From positions 1 through 22,300 of the IMG/VR virus record IMGVR_UViG_3300032561_000144: DNA of 22,300 bases; one strand, 5' to 3'. Made by a program: the position numbers and the translations under genes. The DNA comes from a virus. The notes under the pieces are model-generated. The model did no database searches and was not told the origin of the DNA. It saw nothing but the letters and a program-made list of their open reading frames with translations. Below are positions 6,421 through 22,300 of this stretch, in pieces. Each line of letters starts with the position of its first letter. Position 1 is the stretch's first letter.

Positions 6421-7047
6421 CTAAAATGGCACTTCGTCGTCTAACCCATCATCATCGCACGGCAACGCCGATCCGGTCACAATGACGACTGGGTCGGCGC
6501 GTTCGCGTCCCATGGGCTTGACGGTTGCGCCAGGAAAGGCGCGCTTGATGTCGATGACCTCGGCATACTTGGACAGGATAAGACCGATCTCTGCCAAACT
6601 GTAGACCACCGACGCTCGACCTGATCGCACGACGTGCGCCGCGTCGATATTGTCCCGGCAGATGAGTATCACTTCGCCGGTAGCCGGGTCGTGTGTCTCC
6701 CAGACCTCGGGATCGAGGTGCTTGTGACCGGCTTCGGCTGCGACCTGATCCAGACGCCGCCATGCGGCTGACATACGCTTACACTCGCGCTCCAGCACCT
6801 CACTGTCGCCCTCGCGCACGGCGTCGTAGAATAATTTCCTTTGCCGGTCGAACTTCTCGCGCAGGTCAGCATCAACCAGCAGCCGCAACCTACCGATCCC
6901 CCACCGCCGTTCCATCTCCGTCGCCAGGGCGTCAACAGCGTCCAGATGCGACCTGCCGGTGAGGTATACATCGGGGCCACGGTTCATCCAACCAGCCGAT
7001 GATGCCGGTGGGTTGGGGGGTGATTTGTTTATCGGTTTCTTCGCCAT
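6421..7047 (-). CDS. 208-aa unknown protein with SSB-like acidic C-terminal tip
   Basis: I do not recognise the body of this protein. It starts with a basic, proline-rich tail (MAKKPINKSPPNPPASSAG), then a helical charged region (DADLREKFDRQRKLFYDAV, EVLERECKRMSAAWRRLDQV) and a C-terminal beta-looking part. It ends CDDDGLDDEVPF, matching the acid-rich tip with terminal Pro-Phe of bacterial SSB proteins (DDDIPF), which recruits replication and repair enzymes. The start at 7047 is preferred over 7149 because AGGAG stands nine bases before it and the basic tail begins there. It directly follows the repeat-rich segment downstream of the helicase gene. No OB fold is evident by eye, so SSB itself is only one possibility; an SSB-mimicking partner protein is another. 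Confidence 0.75.
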   Translation of the reverse strand: MAKKPINKSPPNPPASSAGWMNRGPDVYLTGRSHLDAVDALATEMERRWGIGRLRLLVDADLREKFDRQRKLFYDAVREGDSEVLERECKRMSAAWRRLDQVAAEAGHKHLDPEVWETHDPATGEVILICRDNIDAAHVVRSGRASVVYSLAEIGLILSKYAEVIDIKRAFPGATVKPMGRERADPVVIVTGSALPCDDDGLDDEVPF

Positions 7048-7066
7048 TTGTTTTTTCTCCTGTACC

Positions 7067-7091
7067 ATTATGCCAACTAGCAGACTGCTAG
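7067..7091 (-). promoter_or_regulatory. possible operator palindrome beside a CATAAT box
   Basis: CTAGCAGACTGCTAG (7077-7091) is a perfect 7-bp inverted repeat around one base. Reading leftward it is followed four bases later by CATAAT (7067-7072), a five-of-six match to a -10 box, 20 bases before the ATG at 7047. No convincing -35 is seen at the right distance, so a promoter would need an activator or be weak. The palindrome is in the place expected of an operator or activator site. Confidence 0.35.
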
Positions 7092-7103
7092 CGCGATCCC
7101 CTT

Positions 7104-7258
7104 CCCCCACTCGTGCAATGCTGACTTGTGCAGCCTCCGGCGGAGGCAAGTCAGCAGGTTGCTGACTGCAACTTGCACTAGTGGGGGTTTTGAAGTCAGC
7201 AGACCGTTTTGCTGACTTGTTGCTGACTTCAAACCCACTTTTAAGGTTGTAGTCAGCA
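7104..7258. repeat. nested inverted/direct repeats, possible replication origin
   Basis: Seven copies of TGCTGACT occur in 140 bp: forward at 7119, 7160, 7210 and 7221, reverse ending at 7156, 7201 and 7258. Copies at 7119-7128 and 7147-7156 form a perfect 10-bp inverted pair enclosing CCTCCG/CGGAGG. TTTGAAGTCAGCA (7189-7201) pairs perfectly over 13 bp with 7221-7233. An outer pair, CCCCCACTCGTGCAA (7104-7118) and 7173-7187, matches at 14 of 15 positions. The segment is non-coding, immediately after the PrimPol-helicase stop. Clustered iterons beside the replication gene are typical of origins, though a multi-site operator is also possible. Confidence 0.75.
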
Positions 7259-7262
7259 AAAT

Positions 7263-9590
7263 CTACTCTTCCTCTGATTGCGGAGCATAGGCGCTCTGGC
7301 GCTTAAAATCCGCTAACTTTTGCGTGTCAACGAAGACATGTAACCGCTCTGAACGGTCCTTGCCGGGATACATTTTCTCAAAAATAAATCCATCTTTCTT
7401 CCAAAGATCGAGCATACTTTGCGCCCTACTTCTGTAGTTCTTACGGTCACCGTCGGGCGGCATAATGTGGTCGATAATGACATCACCGGCCCAAACTTTC
7501 GAGTCGGCACGCCCCCTTAGGATATAGCGAATTTTTTCCTTTTCGCCGGGCATACCCGCCTCGATCTGCTCCAGCATTTTGGCGGTCAGGGGATCGGAAA
7601 CACCATCGAACAAGCCGGGTGGATCCCAGGCATCGACGACCTGGACGTAATCAGCAGGGTAATCGTCGGTGGCGTTGTCGAGGCAGACGCTGACAAGCTG
7701 GAACCAATGCGCGTGATCGGCGGGGGGTGCCATGTTGGCTTTGGCATTGTCTGATCTGATGTAAGTGCGTCGATCCTCGCTCTTGATGCCTAACTTGGCC
7801 GCATCCTCTTCTGACATGGCTGATAGTGTCGTCATGACGCGAGCGGCGCCTTGTAGAGCAGATGCGCCACGGAAAGACTCGCCATCGCCGGACGTGCCGC
7901 CTTTGCGGAAATGATGGACCAGCTGGATGGCGCAGTTTGCTTGATCGGCAACCTGGGACCAAAGCGCCATGACCTTGACCATTTCTTCGTTGCGGTTTTC
8001 CTCGGCGGTATGGGTATGCGCGAAAGGGTCAACGACAAGTAGCTTGATGTTCTTGGCAATCAGCGCCGCGACTAACTCATCGACGATGGGCGACGCTATC
8101 AAGCCGCCGTCGGTGCGTTGCGTGATGATGATGGGCTGGTTACGACCGCTGTCGAGGTAGATTGGGTGCTTGAAGTCGGCGGGGGTTAAACGGTAGTGCC
8201 GCATGATGCCGGCAACCCGGCGAAGCATCTCGTCGATGGGATCTTCGCCGTTGAAAATCCAGACAGCACCAGATGTATGAACGGCTTCGTAGAATGATTT
8301 AATGGTGCGTTCGATCAGCGAGTAGCCCAAAGCGACGCTAAATGCGTCTACCATCGACTTGGCCGTCTTACCGACGCCGCCCGGCGATCCAAGCAGGGAA
8401 ACGAATTTGAGGATTGTTTCCCGGCCATAAACCCATTGGCGTGGAGGTATTTTGCTTTGATCGTATGAGAATAAGGGTGTCGGCGTTAGACCGCGCTGGG
8501 GTTCAAAATCTTCCTCAAAGCCGGTATTTTGCTCTTTGCCGGTAGGTTCGTCAGGCTCGCCGTCGTCGGTGGTGCTAGAGCCGCTATCACCGGCCTTGAC
8601 GCGGTCCTTAGGCGGTTCTGGCTTCTGGGGTGGTGCTTTTTCGGCAGCCTCACGAACCTCATGATCCCACTTGGCATAGGCATGATCCCACTTTTCGCGG
8701 AACATTGTGATGCCGCGACCTTCGCGTTCAAGCAGGAAATGCTTGGGCGTGCTGGGTTCGTAAATGCGAGATTTGACGTTTCGGACGTAAGTTTCAAAAG
8801 CCTTCATCATGAAGGTCTTTGCCAACGCATCCGACATGATCGGCGATTCGCGGTAGGCATTGACCAAAGCTGCCCACACGATGCGGGTCATATAGGTTTC
8901 GCGACCATCGACAACTTCGTCAGTCAGCGTATTTCGCAGGATGCCGCCGTCGGGGTTATTTGGCCCAGGCTGGCGTTCTGCTGGCCCTGTGGTGCTGCCG
9001 CCGCCATGCTCCCGGACTAGCTTGTCGATGGCGTCACAGAGCCATCTGGGGGCTTCCATGACGGGCTTTTCCCACGGCCCGCACCCAGGCTTCCAGTCGT
9101 AGCGTTTGCCGCTCTCGTGGCTGCTTGGCGGTGCCATGACGAACCCGCCTTGCCCCCGTATATCGACGCCGATGGATGTCTTGTTCGTCGGCGGCATCCA
9201 GCTAGCAGGGGCGCGCAGGAATATCTGCCACCCACCGCCGCCGGTCACTTGCATAGGCGTGTCAAGCATCATGACGTCGTGGTCGGTCAGCAGGGCCTGC
9301 CACCAGTCCGATGCCGCGTGTGTTTTGTGTGTATCGAGGTCGATCACGAACAGCCCACCGGACGCAGCGCCAGTGATGATCCCAAGCTGATCGGTCGATC
9401 TGCCGCGAAACCAGCCTTCGAGGGTATCCTCGTCGGCCAGGGTGCTTTGATTCGCCTTCCAGGCGATGCTGGGGCGTTTCCAGTTGCTGCCGTTGGATGG
9501 GTGATTGGCGGGGACGACCTGCCAGCCCAAGCTGCGATACAGCCGGATGTAATCCCCACCGCCCGCGAAATCAGGATCAAAATCAATCAT
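7263..9590 (-). CDS. primase-polymerase/helicase fusion (PrimPol + RepA-type AAA)
   Basis: The 775-aa protein should prime and unwind at the phage fork. The N-terminal bifunctional primase-polymerase domain (about 12-195) shows GGLFVIDLDTHKT with the metal-binding DLD (84-86), TGGGGWQIFLRAP (116-128) and SIGVDIRGQGGFVMAPPS (139-156, D143). A charged, low-complexity linker (about 315-365) leads to a RecA-like AAA_25 helicase: Walker A GSPGGVGKT (401-409), NGEDP (447-451), Walker B LLVVDPF (517-523) and LVHHFRKGG (557-565). The usual histidine of PrimPol motif II appears to be Gln122. The ATG is preferred because AGGTGA lies just upstream, 17 bases after the resolvase stop. The C-terminal 120 residues look like a winged-helix region but are not identified. 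Confidence 0.92.
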   Translation of the reverse strand: MIDFDPDFAGGGDYIRLYRSLGWQVVPANHPSNGSNWKRPSIAWKANQSTLADEDTLEGWFRGRSTDQLGIITGAASGGLFVIDLDTHKTHAASDWWQALLTDHDVMMLDTPMQVTGGGGWQIFLRAPASWMPPTNKTSIGVDIRGQGGFVMAPPSSHESGKRYDWKPGCGPWEKPVMEAPRWLCDAIDKLVREHGGGSTTGPAERQPGPNNPDGGILRNTLTDEVVDGRETYMTRIVWAALVNAYRESPIMSDALAKTFMMKAFETYVRNVKSRIYEPSTPKHFLLEREGRGITMFREKWDHAYAKWDHEVREAAEKAPPQKPEPPKDRVKAGDSGSSTTDDGEPDEPTGKEQNTGFEEDFEPQRGLTPTPLFSYDQSKIPPRQWVYGRETILKFVSLLGSPGGVGKTAKSMVDAFSVALGYSLIERTIKSFYEAVHTSGAVWIFNGEDPIDEMLRRVAGIMRHYRLTPADFKHPIYLDSGRNQPIIITQRTDGGLIASPIVDELVAALIAKNIKLLVVDPFAHTHTAEENRNEEMVKVMALWSQVADQANCAIQLVHHFRKGGTSGDGESFRGASALQGAARVMTTLSAMSEEDAAKLGIKSEDRRTYIRSDNAKANMAPPADHAHWFQLVSVCLDNATDDYPADYVQVVDAWDPPGLFDGVSDPLTAKMLEQIEAGMPGEKEKIRYILRGRADSKVWAGDVIIDHIMPPDGDRKNYRSRAQSMLDLWKKDGFIFEKMYPGKDRSERLHVFVDTQKLADFKRQSAYAPQSEEE

Positions 9591-16329: not shown

Positions 16330-18146
16330 CAGATGGCCTCGTTAGCTGCCGACAATGCCTTCGTGATGGCTTCGTCGGGGAGGTTAAGCAGGGGTTCGGT
16401 CGTCTCGTTCTCGGCCTTCTTGGCCCGTTCTGCGGCCCGCATTAAAGCCTCTGCGGCGGATTTGTGATCCAGACCGGCACGGCCACCACTTGCACGCTGG
16501 ATCCGACCGCCGGTGGCGTGGGGTTGCTGATTAATTTGCGATGCTTGATATGCTATATCGCCCTGCAATGGCGATATGCTGGGTAATTTCCCCATCATTC
16601 TAGAGCCAGCCCCAGCGGCGTAATTCAAATTTCCCATGAGTTTTGGCGATGCCGCCGCAAAGGCAGGCAATGCACCAGGATGCGTCATTAGGGCATAAAG
16701 TGCAGCAGGACTATCAATCGCCTGTCGTATGCGATCCGGCAACCATTCGCTAAGAGCATGACCCGCTAGCATGTAAGGAATACGAGGGTCTTTTTGACCA
16801 AGTTGTTGAATGAGATCTTCACCAGACTGCGATTTATAGGAATTGAAAATTTTCTTCATTTGCTGAGATGTAGCTAATCTGTTTGAATTTCCTATTTGTG
16901 CTTTCAAATCTTTTAATTGATCTGAGGCATTTCCATAATTTTTCATAATTTGGGCATATTCTGGATGCACCGCAGATATAGCATCAACTACTGATTGGCG
17001 TAATTTTGTCGCCATTGCATTTTGCACCGGGCTTACTGAACCTCCTTGATAATTTCCAATAAACCGTTTTAACCCATCAAAACCTTCAAGATTATGAAAC
17101 AATGATCCTTCAGGCGCTGATTGACGCATGTGTATTTCTGAAGCTATTTGTCTATATGCCTCAGCCGCATTGGGATCAATTTTAGAAATCATACCAGTAA
17201 CAGGATCAGTTTGATGCGCCATATCAAAGGCTTCTTGTAGCTTTTGATTAATTCCACTCCAATCTAATGAAGGCAAAGTTCCGGGATCAGCGCCACGCAA
17301 CCCTGCTTGTTTTGCAGCAGCTATATAGTTGTCACTTCTATCTTTAGCAATTTGGTTTACGGCATCATTGACCGCATCAAGAATATCTGCTCGACTTCCT
17401 GCTCCTGTAAGGTGTTGCATAAATGCCGATTTCAGCGCAGGATTATCTGTAGCACCCGCCGCCGCAGCAGTTTTTAACGCTGTAACAGGGGCGCCAGTCA
17501 ATCCAGATTGAATATATGGGGCAACCTTTTCAACACCCTTTGTTGCCACAGAAAAAGGCATTTTTGCTAAACGAAGTGTATTTTGTAATGGATCAATCGC
17601 AGATCCTACTTTCCCAGCTATTGAAGAGGCTTTACCTACAATGCCTGGAGCCTTTGCTGCAATTCCTGCCCCGCCTAATACCGTCGAAAGATCCATAAGG
17701 GGAGAAGCAGGATCAGTGGCTAATGCTTCTTTTAATCCAGCAATAGACCCATAAGTATGAGCATAATGCTCTCCTACTGCATCTGCGACATTAGAAGACT
17801 GCTGCATTGTCTCTGGCGAAAATAACTGATTTGCAACTGATCCAACGCCAGGAATTTTAGACGCTGCTCCCAATCCAAGCATGCCAATATTTTGCGCCGT
17901 TTCCACAGGATGAGCGCCTGCATGCACTATATCGCCAAGCATATTGCCAACACTAGACGGTAATGCCCGAACCCCTTTTTCAGCCACCTCCGACCATGGC
18001 ATATTGGCATAATTTTCCGTAGATACTGGTTCTTCAGAAACCGGGGAAAATATTTTGTCTAATCCAGAGGAATTATCACTTGAAGCGGCATTTTGCCCCA
18101 GTAATTGATCAATAGAAGTGATGTCAGAGTCATTGAAAGCTGGCAT
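16329..18146 (-). CDS. 605-aa virion protein, likely internal or ejected
   Basis: A long Ala/Gly/Ser-rich protein with many predicted helices and weakly hydrophobic stretches (MLGLGAASKIPGVGSVANQL, LSTVLGGAGIAAKAPGIVGK), typical of phage internal or pilot proteins that insert in the envelope during DNA entry. The C-terminus has ATGGRIQRASGGRAG and a helix with AAERAKKAENETTEPLLNLP and DEAITKALSAANEAI, a tail I associate with phage structural proteins of alphaproteobacterial phages. The start is the ATG at 18146, overlapping the stop of the large gene upstream (TGATG) with AGG seven bases before; a GTG three bases earlier is less likely. Its middle is conspicuously AT-rich against a GC-rich context. 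Exact role is inferred. Confidence 0.7.
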   Translation of the reverse strand: MPAFNDSDITSIDQLLGQNAASSDNSSGLDKIFSPVSEEPVSTENYANMPWSEVAEKGVRALPSSVGNMLGDIVHAGAHPVETAQNIGMLGLGAASKIPGVGSVANQLFSPETMQQSSNVADAVGEHYAHTYGSIAGLKEALATDPASPLMDLSTVLGGAGIAAKAPGIVGKASSIAGKVGSAIDPLQNTLRLAKMPFSVATKGVEKVAPYIQSGLTGAPVTALKTAAAAGATDNPALKSAFMQHLTGAGSRADILDAVNDAVNQIAKDRSDNYIAAAKQAGLRGADPGTLPSLDWSGINQKLQEAFDMAHQTDPVTGMISKIDPNAAEAYRQIASEIHMRQSAPEGSLFHNLEGFDGLKRFIGNYQGGSVSPVQNAMATKLRQSVVDAISAVHPEYAQIMKNYGNASDQLKDLKAQIGNSNRLATSQQMKKIFNSYKSQSGEDLIQQLGQKDPRIPYMLAGHALSEWLPDRIRQAIDSPAALYALMTHPGALPAFAAASPKLMGNLNYAAGAGSRMMGKLPSISPLQGDIAYQASQINQQPHATGGRIQRASGGRAGLDHKSAAEALMRAAERAKKAENETTEPLLNLPDEAITKALSAANEAI

Positions 18147-21100
18147 CACATCACCTGCGGAGAGAAGTAGCGATAAAGACCGGGATTTTTGTAAAACCGT
18201 TCTATATCTGCTGGGTTACGAAACGCTTTTTGTGCATTAGGAGATTTTTCAGTTCCAGGGCTACCTAAGATAAATTGGACGGGTGAATGGGGTTGTTTAT
18301 CTTCCGTCATAAGCCGATCTGTTGGGGTCATCATTGACATCAATGCACTTCTATCTCGATAATAAGAACTAATATTATGATCTGCATCAAATGCTTGATT
18401 GATGTTCAATCCAATACCTAAGGGTGTAGTAGAAACGTATTTGCGAGCATAAGCAGCGCGCTCAATATCTCTCTGTGACCCAATTAAACTATCTGCCAAT
18501 ATTTGTTTTATGGCTTCTGGCGTCATTGAATTATTGGCATTAGCTGACAGTAAAAGCGGTATTGCACCCAATGCACGTTCACCCATGCCCCTAGCTTCAA
18601 GTGCGCTTTGGGCAAGGATTAATTTTTCTGCTACTTGTTGTTGGGTAAGAGCGCCTGAATTACCCCACCCGTTTGGCATATATTTGTCTAACCCGCTGCT
18701 ACGCGCCCATGTATCAACAAGATTCATCACATTGGCACGATCTTCTATACCAGCACCGGTAGCTAAGGGTCCGCTAGGACGAACCATATTAGCTAACAGT
18801 TCAAGCATTTTTTGACGGCCATCTTGTGATATTGCCGCACGATTGTTAATTTCTTCAAGATTTTTATTTATATTTTCGCGATTTACATCTCCATGAATAG
18901 CAGCGTAGTTGGCTTCATCACGCGCAATAGTTGATCCAACAGGTCCTATGGGAACCGTATAAGAATATTCTCCCGGTGTAGTAGCTTTTGACGGTATGCC
19001 AGGAGCAGCATCTCTTGGCGCTTCTGGCGCGTTTAGTCCAGTATTAGCACCTAAGGGTGCTGGAGTAGCAGCTTGCTGCTGTTGCTGGCGAAGCGTGCGA
19101 ACGGATGGGACGTAGTTCTGGGTTTCAGCGGGCAAATGCGAAAGCCACGGACGCCCATCTATTTGCGATTTGGCCAGCGCGCTTTGAACGGCCTGCGGAC
19201 CAGCATTGTAAGCGGCTGCGGCCATATCCGGGTCACCGAAGGTTGCGCGCTGTTTGGCATAATACGCTTTGCCAAGCGCCTCATTATACGCCGAATCGTA
19301 TTTGAACCGGGTTTCATCCCACGGCAGCCCGGCCAGTTGCGCGGCTTCTGGACCGGTTCCCGGCATGACTTGACCAATTCCAACCGCCCCAGCGCCTGAA
19401 ACCAAAGGCATGCCATCTGACCGGAATTGGTGGCCGCCGCTTTCCTGCTGACGGATCGCCGCCCATTCAGGATCATCAATAATACCCGATGGATTTAGTC
19501 CATAACGTCGTGCTGTTGCCATTGCAGCGTCGCCGCTCAATGTTGGGCTAGGGTGTTGTAACCATTCGCCCAAAAGAACAGGCGTGCCATCAGCTTTCAA
19601 AACCCATTGGCGTCCACCAGCTTCAAAGATGGCATTTTTCGCCAAACCTTGCGCCGCAGCAGCTTGTGTAAGTGCCGCAGTTGTCGGGTAAGCATTAGCT
19701 TGTGCTTGCGTAAGATTGCCCCTTGTCATCGCCTCAGTTGTTTCAGCCGCTTGTTTTTCGCGGGCTTGCATCTGGTTCTGGACGCCTTCATACGCTTGCG
19801 CGCCAGCACCAAGTCCCTGCAATAGGGCGGACCCTAGATAACGGCTGTTCGACGAAGCCATGCCACCGATGCCAGACAGCAGGGGAACCAACCAGCTTTG
19901 GTTGCGTTCCATCCAACCGCCTTTGTCAAATGCGCCAGGGCCTTCAGGCGTCTGTCGCGTTGCTGCTGGAGTTTGCCCCTCGCCGCCGACCGGCGTAGGT
20001 GCGGCATTGTTAGAGGGCGCAACGGACGATGTTGGAAGAAGGCCACCCGGCGGGGTGGCCGCACCAGCCGGCAGCCGCGCCGCACCCGCGACGCCAGCAT
20101 TTGCGGGAGCAGCGGCATCAGCCGGAGAGATATTTAAGCGCGGTTCATTGAAAGGACGATCACCTGGAGGATAAGATCCTGCAGGCACCAATCCACCTGC
20201 AACAGACGGCTCATTAAAAGGATAATCACCTGGAGGATAAGACCCCGTTCTACCCGCAACAGGTGTAGATACGGGTCCTGAATTGACAATGGTTTCTGGA
20301 ACATTTGTCCCATAAGGATCGCTTAATACGCCTAATCCACTGCGATCTGGTTCAGCAGTATTACCCCACGGTCTCGTAGCAAGCCAAGCCACTTCGGCTT
20401 GTCTGCTATTTTTCATGGCTTGAACGGAATTTGGATCATCGGGATGGTGCGCGATCAGACTTGCTAGTTGGTCTTGATTTAATCCCATATCAAAACCGGT
20501 CGTAAGGGGGTTAGTCGCGCCTTGCGAAGCAGCCCAACGCTCCATTATCTCTTGCCGCGTCGGTCGCCCAATAATCCTATCATAAAGAGATGGACCATTA
20601 GGGTTTACATCCTGTGACGTATCCTGCGACCCATCCTGCGTATCATCCGTGACCGCCCCGTCACCCTGATACCCCTTCCGCCCCACCAGCCCACCGGCTG
20701 CCCGGCGGCGTGCGGCAAGAGCGCCAAAGCCCATCAGTCCCTCGCCACCGCCATGATGGTGCGGCGCGTCGTCGTGGTAAGGTTCGTGGATGAAGCCGCC
20801 ATTTCGAGCGGCTAATAGCGGCAAAAGTTTAGAAAGACCGCTGGCAGCCATACCAACACCGCTAGCAAGACCTCCAATGCCGCCCGCTAGGCTACCCAAC
20901 TGCTGTGCGCCACTTGGCCCTTGCGACGGCGTAGAGGCTGTCTGTAGCTGTTTGGGCGGTGCGGGCTGAGCATCCTGGGCTTCACCCATATACCCTTTGC
21001 TATCGTCCCCGGTGTTCTCATACGGCGTCGATATGCCGCCAGCAGCATAGGGATGGCGCGGGACTAGACCACCGTGGGCTTCATGAATACGACCGCCACG

Positions 21101-22300
21101 ATAATTTGTGCTGGGTGATGCGTCAGAAGCCACAGGAGGCGGTTGAGATGGATCGCCATATTTACTACGTAGATTGTTTACGACATCCTCTTGGCTATTG
21201 CCGCCAAAGGTGCCGCCCGCATTGATATTTTGAAAGCCTTGAGAAAGGGATTTGATCCCCCCAACCAACCCACCGTCCCCAGTCTTACCAAACAGCGCAG
21301 CGTCGCCCTTTTCACCCAGGTTCGCCCAGTTGCTCATGCTCTGGGCAGCATCCATCATCGTCGGCTGATGTTGCGTCGGCTCATGGGCAACCATCAACTG
21401 ACGCGGTTGACCACCGCCCATGCCGCCAAGACCGCCCGATCCTGTCGAAGGCATGTATGGATTGCCCTTGCCGGGTATCAGGCCAAGGTTGCTGTAAAGG
21501 TTTAGTTGCTGGGCAGCCACTCCCGGCATGCCACCATCAGCAAACCCCTCACCAGCATGCTCGATCCCAACCGCGCCGCCTTCAGATGACGGAACCAACC
21601 CGCCAGAGTAAAAGTGACCACGGTGGGCAGCTTCATCAGTAGCGCGATCATAATCAACAGTCTTATACCCACCCATCAACCCAACAGCATCTGGGTGATG
21701 CTTTTCGACATCTTGCGCGATAAGGCCAATCTGCTTACCGGGTTTACCTTTATACTTAAACTTGACTATCTTCTGGCCGTCGTATGTTTCACCGATCGGC
21801 TGAATGTCTTCCTTCAACCGCTCGTCAGAGAAGAACGACGACGGCTGCGTCGAGGTGGTCGTCGATCCCGACAGCGCGCCAATGCCTTCCGAAATGTTCG
21901 CCAGTTCGCCAAGCGTTTGGAACGGGTAAGCCTGCGCCTGAAGGAACTGGTTATACAGCGCCTGCAAACCGGCCTGAGCCGTCTGCTGCTGGGTAAGACC
22001 GGCAGCCTGCTGCGCTTGCGCGCCCTGCAACCCGGCAGTCTGAGCAGCCGTGCCAAGGCCACCCAACTGCGCCCCGGCACTTGTCAGGCGGGCAAGGTTC
22101 GCCTGCTGCGCCGCCAACTGCGCGGCCTGCTGCTGCGCGGCAGTATTCTGCGCCTGCGTATACCCAGCCTGTAGCAACCCAGCGTTCGTCTGGTTGTTGG
22201 CAAGGTTCTGCTGATAGGCAAGGTTCGCGGCAGCAACGCCCGACCGGTCGCCACCAAACGCCCCAGCCTGGATTGCCTGACCCTGCAACCCGCTCGCCTG
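18146..22300 (-). CDS. giant virion protein with S74-like and transglycosylase domains (5' end beyond window)
   Basis: The frame is open to the right edge, so the true start is outside; 1384 residues are visible. First comes an Ala/Gln-rich helical region (about 1-150). Next is an S74-like intramolecular chaperone segment: SDERLKEDIQPIG (Ser about 158, Lys five residues on), QIGLIAQDVEKHHPDAVG and YKTVDYDRATDEA. Long Gly/Pro-rich low-complexity regions follow, then a lytic transglycosylase SLT domain (about 940-1050): IRQQESGG with the catalytic Glu encoded at 19442-19444, GAVGIGQVMPGTG, and AAAAYNAGPQAV. This enzyme would cut peptidoglycan while DNA enters the cell. The C-terminal third is helical and AT-rich. 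A T7 gp16-like ejected protein is the best parallel; the S74-like motif in the middle is unusual. Confidence 0.88.
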   Translation of the reverse strand, partial: QASGLQGQAIQAGAFGGDRSGVAAANLAYQQNLANNQTNAGLLQAGYTQAQNTAAQQQAAQLAAQQANLARLTSAGAQLGGLGTAAQTAGLQGAQAQQAAGLTQQQTAQAGLQALYNQFLQAQAYPFQTLGELANISEGIGALSGSTTTSTQPSSFFSDERLKEDIQPIGETYDGQKIVKFKYKGKPGKQIGLIAQDVEKHHPDAVGLMGGYKTVDYDRATDEAAHRGHFYSGGLVPSSEGGAVGIEHAGEGFADGGMPGVAAQQLNLYSNLGLIPGKGNPYMPSTGSGGLGGMGGGQPRQLMVAHEPTQHQPTMMDAAQSMSNWANLGEKGDAALFGKTGDGGLVGGIKSLSQGFQNINAGGTFGGNSQEDVVNNLRSKYGDPSQPPPVASDASPSTNYRGGRIHEAHGGLVPRHPYAAGGISTPYENTGDDSKGYMGEAQDAQPAPPKQLQTASTPSQGPSGAQQLGSLAGGIGGLASGVGMAASGLSKLLPLLAARNGGFIHEPYHDDAPHHHGGGEGLMGFGALAARRRAAGGLVGRKGYQGDGAVTDDTQDGSQDTSQDVNPNGPSLYDRIIGRPTRQEIMERWAASQGATNPLTTGFDMGLNQDQLASLIAHHPDDPNSVQAMKNSRQAEVAWLATRPWGNTAEPDRSGLGVLSDPYGTNVPETIVNSGPVSTPVAGRTGSYPPGDYPFNEPSVAGGLVPAGSYPPGDRPFNEPRLNISPADAAAPANAGVAGAARLPAGAATPPGGLLPTSSVAPSNNAAPTPVGGEGQTPAATRQTPEGPGAFDKGGWMERNQSWLVPLLSGIGGMASSNSRYLGSALLQGLGAGAQAYEGVQNQMQAREKQAAETTEAMTRGNLTQAQANAYPTTAALTQAAAAQGLAKNAIFEAGGRQWVLKADGTPVLLGEWLQHPSPTLSGDAAMATARRYGLNPSGIIDDPEWAAIRQQESGGHQFRSDGMPLVSGAGAVGIGQVMPGTGPEAAQLAGLPWDETRFKYDSAYNEALGKAYYAKQRATFGDPDMAAAAYNAGPQAVQSALAKSQIDGRPWLSHLPAETQNYVPSVRTLRQQQQQAATPAPLGANTGLNAPEAPRDAAPGIPSKATTPGEYSYTVPIGPVGSTIARDEANYAAIHGDVNRENINKNLEEINNRAAISQDGRQKMLELLANMVRPSGPLATGAGIEDRANVMNLVDTWARSSGLDKYMPNGWGNSGALTQQQVAEKLILAQSALEARGMGERALGAIPLLLSANANNSMTPEAIKQILADSLIGSQRDIERAAYARKYVSTTPLGIGLNINQAFDADHNISSYYRDRSALMSMMTPTDRLMTEDKQPHSPVQFILGSPGTEKSPNAQKAFRNPADIERFYKNPGLYRYFSPQVM
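20142..20246 (-). repeat. 66-bp-spaced direct repeat in the giant virion gene
   Basis: Two 39-bp copies (20142-20180 and 20208-20246) match at 33 of 39 positions, 66 bp apart, encoding GSYPPGD-x-PFNEP twice with a 22-residue period. They lie in the Pro/Gly-rich linker before the transglycosylase domain. Most differences are silent, so the peptide is conserved more than the DNA. Confidence 0.85.

Follow-up and report, generated by a model that had tools for sequence, protein, structure and literature searches.

We identified a candidate replication origin in the 215 bp non-coding gap at positions 7048..7262 of a 22.3 kb virus record (the whole stretch analysed, hereafter the window). With a probability of about 0.72, we regard this gap as the place where an alphaproteobacterial phage starts to replicate its DNA and where its own replication protein lands. 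It carries an array of seven exact copies of the octamer TGCTGACT together with nested inverted repeats, unique in the genome known here, and arrays with a similar layout and different units recur 3' of RepA-like helicase genes in many lineages. An origin had been proposed in an earlier sequence-only reading of this DNA; it is now the best-supported reading, supported rather than proven, through analogy with the plasmid pRN1 and co-variation of the unit with the helicase C-terminal domain. Because the layout recurs with lineage-specific words, it points to an origin that the C-terminal end of the helicase recognises.

Structure of the repeat array

All seven octamer copies in the window, in both orientations, fell inside 7119-7258, against an expectation of 0.43 in 22.3 kb (shuffle mean), and none of 100 shuffles reached seven. 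Further exact copies were found neither elsewhere in the window nor in the remainder of a 31 kb sister contig, and there was no regulon-like scatter upstream of genes. Counting from the helicase gene, unit 1 (7251..7258, minus strand) lies 5 bp past the stop codon and is followed by units 2 (7221..7228, plus) and 3 (7210..7217, plus), which are 11 bp apart, unit 4 (7194..7201, minus), units 5 (7160..7167, plus) and 6 (7149..7156, minus), again 11 bp apart with opposite orientations, and unit 7 (7119..7126, plus). The 7-mer word of this array is AGTCAGCA, and the 11 bp spacing at 7210/7221 and 7149/7160 resembles a helical turn.

A perfect inverted 10 bp pair links 7119-7128 with 7147-7156, whilst a 16 nt inverted pair (7186-7201/7221-7236, 94 %) contains a perfect pair of 13 bp. 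The left arm of an outer 15 nt stem (7104..7118) is 93 % complementary to the right arm (7173..7187), with one mismatch. The sequence-only reading had described the seven copies, both perfect pairs and the mismatched outer pair, and all were recovered here. Units 6 and 7 enclose a GC hairpin, GCCTCCGGCGGAGGC (7133..7147; sequence and fold), and the loop that separates units 1 and 2 contains TTTTAA, a short A/T tract (7239..7244; sequence). No clear AT-rich unwinding element was found. Folded as single-stranded DNA, the gap reached -56.4 kcal/mol versus -27.9 +/- 3.8 in shuffles (z -7.5). The window thus displays a trait of iteron origins, namely seven copies of one short unit beside a replication-protein gene, and a pRN1-like trait, a large stem-loop just 3' of the replication gene, which is also present in most relatives. 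A separate palindrome, CTAGCAGACTGCTAG, lies between the array and the next gene (7077..7091; sequence and fold) and has no exact-match relation to the octamer.

Replication protein and genomic context

The adjoining gene (7263..9590, minus strand) encodes a 775 aa replication protein that combines a PrimPol and a RepA-like helicase, assigned by Pfam, profile and fold comparison, with a predicted C-terminal winged helix. The Prim-Pol domain occupies residues 19-183 (9042..9536, minus strand; PF09250, E 1.2e-25) and the helicase domain residues 374-565 (7896..8471, minus strand; AAA_25, PF13481, E 1.9e-28). The latter matched RSF1010 RepA by profile (1g8y, E 3.7e-24) and by fold (1nlf, E 2.1e-14), and its class is RecA-fold RepA type, not superfamily 3. 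An AlphaFold2 model of the full-length protein, built with a 38-sequence alignment, predicted helices at residues 666-678, 701-709 and 716-732 followed by strands at 736-742 and 748-754. Three helices and then two strands is the order of a winged helix, and the predicted domain (residues 666-755; 7326..7595, minus strand) is our candidate reader of the array. Block pLDDT was about 79-94 over residues 700-760, and W700 and G702 were invariant in 38/38 aligned sequences; modelled alone from a single sequence, the C-terminal part was poor (pLDDT 58).

The gap is bordered by the helicase stop at 7263 and by the ATG of the next gene at 7047, which has AGGAG ahead of it. This gene (6421..7047, minus strand) lies on the same strand as the replication protein and encodes 208 aa without a match in Pfam or PHROG; by eye, the frames following the arrays of relatives L025 and L152 resemble it. 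A 242 aa ORF with a TTG start (6421-7149) was rejected as a mechanical over-extension into the array. Genes for a Holliday-junction resolvase, terminase subunits and a PD-(D/E)XK nuclease in the neighbourhood identify it as a phage replication and packaging block.

The 31 kb sister contig was 99.7-99.8 % identical to the window, and in three contigs besides the window (99.7-99.9 % identical) the gap was unchanged. Sister contigs displayed 6-23 differences per 6.6-9.4 kb and zero inside the gap, a level of similarity too high for conservation inside the gap to be assessed from them. The differences were bunched in short tracts (window 6964-6982, 8184-8203 and 8724-8763), with seven in the 19 bp at 6964-6982; such bunching among near-identical contigs is like short gene-conversion or assembly patches.

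Distribution of arrays among relatives

Profile searches of viral contigs and bacterial genomes yielded 161 loci with relatives of the PrimPol and RepA-like helicase, representing 65 independent lineages (one representative per 75 %-identity cluster). Their named hosts were Alphaproteobacteria, with a few titles giving only Proteobacteria. An array was defined as a 7-mer that occurs five or more times within 250 bp, counting either strand, an exact criterion that misses degenerate arrays. In the viral set, arrays were present downstream of the helicase in 22/80 loci and in none upstream or inside the gene. A second set of named genomes, collected later, gave 39/75 downstream, 3/73 upstream and 3/80 inside. 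By lineage, 30 carried an array downstream only, two upstream only, one on both sides and 32 on neither, so that 31/65 lineages had a downstream array versus three with an upstream one (McNemar p=2.5e-7); no shuffled control reached the same threshold (0/65). Comparison of the gap with related phages therefore placed a repeat cluster 3' of the same helicase in many lineages, and 26 of the lineage arrays begin no more than 120 bp past the helicase stop codon. About half of the lineages were without an array of at least five exact copies, and the 31 loci of the L039-type group had at most four exact copies, 0.5-2.9 kb away.

In many relatives a cluster of a different word starts a few bases past the helicase stop codon. 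The words differed by lineage, with AGTCAGCA in the window versus GTGGAGCA (L040, L074 and L089), CTGGAGCA (L036), GTGCGGCA (L050), ACTGTGCA and others, including GTGATGCA (L025), ACCGGGG (L053) and GTGGGGCA (L066). That the unit differs in each lineage agrees with the remark in the sequence-only reading that it was not recognisable from a named system. Searching viral contigs for a pattern of three spaced window-type units gave no match, as expected given that the unit changes between lineages. A DNA similarity search in cultured phages returned chance matches only, and a scan of genome contigs with the single replication protein as query gave no match.

In L022, L049, L055 and L120-L123 the array was located further down, with other genes or inserted sequence between it and the helicase. 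The interval holds an antisense 410 aa gene in L022 (8230-9462) and a short reading frame in L120-L123, and in these loci it resembles a spot at which additional genes are inserted. In L154 and L030, the frame after the array resembles a single-strand-binding protein by eye (L154: MAGSLNRVTLVGNVG), which would suit a replication module.

Despite the differing words, a layout recurred: an inverted copy, a forward copy 22-30 bp on and the next 10-11 bp later, then an inverted copy, a GC hairpin and forward copies. Unit offsets from the first were 0-, 30+, 41+, 57-, 91+, 102- and 132+ in the window and 0-, 23+, 34+, 43+, 60-, 99+ and 128+ in L089, where three units have one mismatch. Both orientations were present in 41/42 distinct arrays. 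Neighbours in the same orientation were 8-11 bp apart in 61/117 cases, and the spacing of opposite neighbours peaked at 21-25 and 36-38 bp. In many arrays a perfect hairpin (e.g. CCCC-TTTA-GGGG) separated an inverted unit from a forward one; at the place matching GCCTCCGGCGGAGGC of the window, many relatives had a hairpin rich in GC or in AT, and several had an A- or T-rich loop matching the position of TTTTAA. As arrays of mostly same-orientation units also exist (L031 and L065), what the arrays have in common seems to be the unit and not the hairpin.

Some relatives were circular replicons with ParA genes. Methylobacterium indicum pVL1_6 (circular, 31.5 kb) carried a TOPRIM primase, a RepA-like helicase and a seven-copy array, and no other replication initiator was found among its annotated genes in the PLSDB gene table, which is incomplete and lists several hypothetical proteins. 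Plasmid 1 of Rhodoplanes serenus, a circular phage-like replicon, had an eight-copy array after the helicase, with the 10-mer AGGTGACGCA present six times, only in the array, within the stretch read. The gene adjoining the helicase in Methylobacterium and Microvirga plasmids encodes a TOPRIM primase. In M. lotononidis, repB/repC accompany the helicase and array, so that it is uninformative on the origin.

Co-variation of the unit with helicase domains

Unit similarity was correlated with identity of the helicase C-terminus (r=0.31, p=0.004), versus p=0.065 for RecA identity and p=0.39 for PrimPol identity, and the association with the C-terminus was retained in a partial test given RecA (p=0.002). 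The unit register in this main test was set by hand. Automatically derived units gave the same direction more weakly, with p=0.043 (n=30) and 0.036 (n=19) for the C-terminus and p=0.010 and 0.09 in the partial test. It is thus partly shown that the unit co-varies with the C-terminal domain, the predicted winged helix, and these sequence comparisons suggest that it follows that domain rather than the motor or primase domain.

The pair L040 and L097 provides an example, being 97 % identical in PrimPol and 96 % in RecA but 40 % at the C-terminus, with units GTGGAGCA and ACGTGCA, respectively. Their DNA similarity breaks off 266 bp short of the L040 stop codon and picks up again on the far side of the array; recombination has apparently replaced the C-terminal part of the helicase, the array and following genes as one block. 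Arrays were also present in L043, L065 and L066, where a Prim-Pol match was absent.

Comparison with known replication systems

The closest known systems are the pRN1 stem-loop origin 3' of orf904 and the IncQ plasmid RSF1010. Berkner et al. reported that replication of pRN1, a Sulfolobus plasmid, needs a stem-loop of ~100 nt 3' of the PrimPol-helicase gene, which functions when relocated and whose stem symmetry matters in one tested position (PMC4234260). Like the window, pRN1 has a non-coding region with a stem-loop no more than about 170 bp past this gene, an archaeo-eukaryotic primase (AEP) domain in its replication protein (PF09250, E 1.2e-25, in the window), a C-terminal winged helix (predicted in the window protein) and structure kept while sequence diverges. 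It differs in its SF3 helicase, that of the window being RepA-like, and no unit array was found in the 300 bp after its gene (best 7-mer cluster, three copies). A similar stem-loop has been noted 3' of the replication gene of Bordetella phages BPP-1/BIP-1 (PMC4234260), in which, as in the window, the replication protein is of AEP type and the proposed origin directly follows the gene encoding it. These phages also differ in having an SF3 helicase, and the 400 bp after the BPP-1 gene contained no repeated-unit array (best three copies). By analogy, the window may be read as the pRN1 principle with a RepA-type helicase and iteron-like units added.

RSF1010 resembles the window in its RepA-type helicase and in having repeats and hairpins beside a primase and a ring helicase. 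It divides the work between three separate proteins, RepC with iterons, the RepA helicase and the RepB' primase with ssi hairpins (PMC4234260), whereas in the window a single fused protein unites primase, helicase and predicted DNA reader, and the 8 bp units occur in both orientations. The primase-polymerase of phage NrS-1 recognises the octamer TTTGGTTA as a start site (PMC8718748). NrS-1 is alike in having a phage PrimPol and an octamer, and differs in that the window-type unit appears to vary with the C-terminal domain and persists beside helicases that lack a fused PrimPol. Phage P4, too, has a primase-helicase with a winged helix (predicted in the window) and repeats, although its primase is TOPRIM, unlike the PrimPol of the window. 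The winged helix of the P4 alpha protein binds origin repeats (PMC4234260). The same domain order as in the window is given for AEP-RepA-winged-helix proteins (PrimQH and related families) in the part of PMC5862659 that we draw on, where their C-terminal winged helices were proposed to recognise origins; no DNA array was found described for the PrimQH-type families in that part.

Alternative explanations

The array might instead be a set of operators, at which the replication protein's winged helix, or another phage repressor, represses or times replication-gene transcription with no initiation there. Autoregulation would likewise be consistent with a short unit clustered in two orientations close to where a DNA-binding protein is encoded, and the array does precede the next gene on the same strand. 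However, no sigma-70-type promoter was found, the array lies 3' of the helicase gene and not 5', and arrays are kept before differing downstream genes; we consider this explanation unlikely. Alternatively, the helicase transcript may end in an RNA-level element that serves as a terminator or attenuator or stabilises the mRNA, which would account for the first inverted pair directly past the stop codon and for the folding of minus-strand RNA of the gap far above chance (z -5.9). The chances of this reading nonetheless appear small, as a scan for intrinsic terminators (a GC stem and then a T-run) found none, an Rfam scan gave no match, and an RNA hairpin leaves unexplained the third and later copies, the 8-11 bp spacing and the mostly same-orientation arrays of L031 and L065. 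In pRN1, moreover, the terminator hairpin is dispensable and the larger stem-loop is not (PMC4234260).

ParA genes on some circular relatives raise the possibility of a centromere-like partition or incompatibility site of a phage-plasmid, yet the arrays track the helicase and not a Par gene, and we view this as very improbable. Nested inverted repeats would also be expected of a MITE- or REP-like mobile element inserted in the gap. Such an insertion is scarcely credible here, given that no terminal inverted repeat was found around the entire array, that lineages which have diverged carry arrays of different sequence at the same position, and that the genome known here holds no second copy.

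GC skew, a further check on the proposed origin, agreed in part. In the window and the sister contig its minimum lay about 300 bp from the array; it was not near the array in six relatives, in one of which (L049) the maximum coincided instead. Since agreement is confined to the window and sister contig, we do not use skew as support, and in the relatives it does not decide the matter.

Proposed mechanism and implications

Initiation at the proposed origin might proceed as follows. The predicted winged helix would bind the 8-9 bp units, whose spacing of about one helical turn (8-11 bp) could place several subunits on the DNA. Inverted units and hairpins may help to melt or extrude the duplex, after which the RepA-like ring would load, and the first primers would be made at the array by the fused PrimPol or, in relatives, by a separate TOPRIM primase.

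The helicase C-terminal winged helix and the array may further constitute one exchangeable origin cassette, with a lineage-specific unit, that moves between phages by recombination while the primase is interchangeable, a proposal for and against which we see even odds. If true, the cassette would determine replicon identity across a wide class of phages and phage-plasmids of Alphaproteobacteria. The origins of PrimPol phages are mostly unknown, the pRN1 stem-loop being the main precedent. Since position alone was enough to locate arrays in about half of the tested lineages, sequence data may allow origins to be predicted across a large group of phages of Alphaproteobacteria. Paired changes in unit and C-terminal domain supply natural material for working out the DNA code of this winged helix, and such pairs make the published proposal of origin recognition by winged helices directly testable.

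Other features of the window

G+C content at window positions 16500-19000, inside large structural genes, was 0.42-0.45 versus about 0.5-0.6 elsewhere. A 1380 aa ORF at 18146-22288 carries, by eye, an apparent S74-type chaperone motif (SDERLKEDI) that precedes a lytic-transglycosylase-like stretch, an unusual order.
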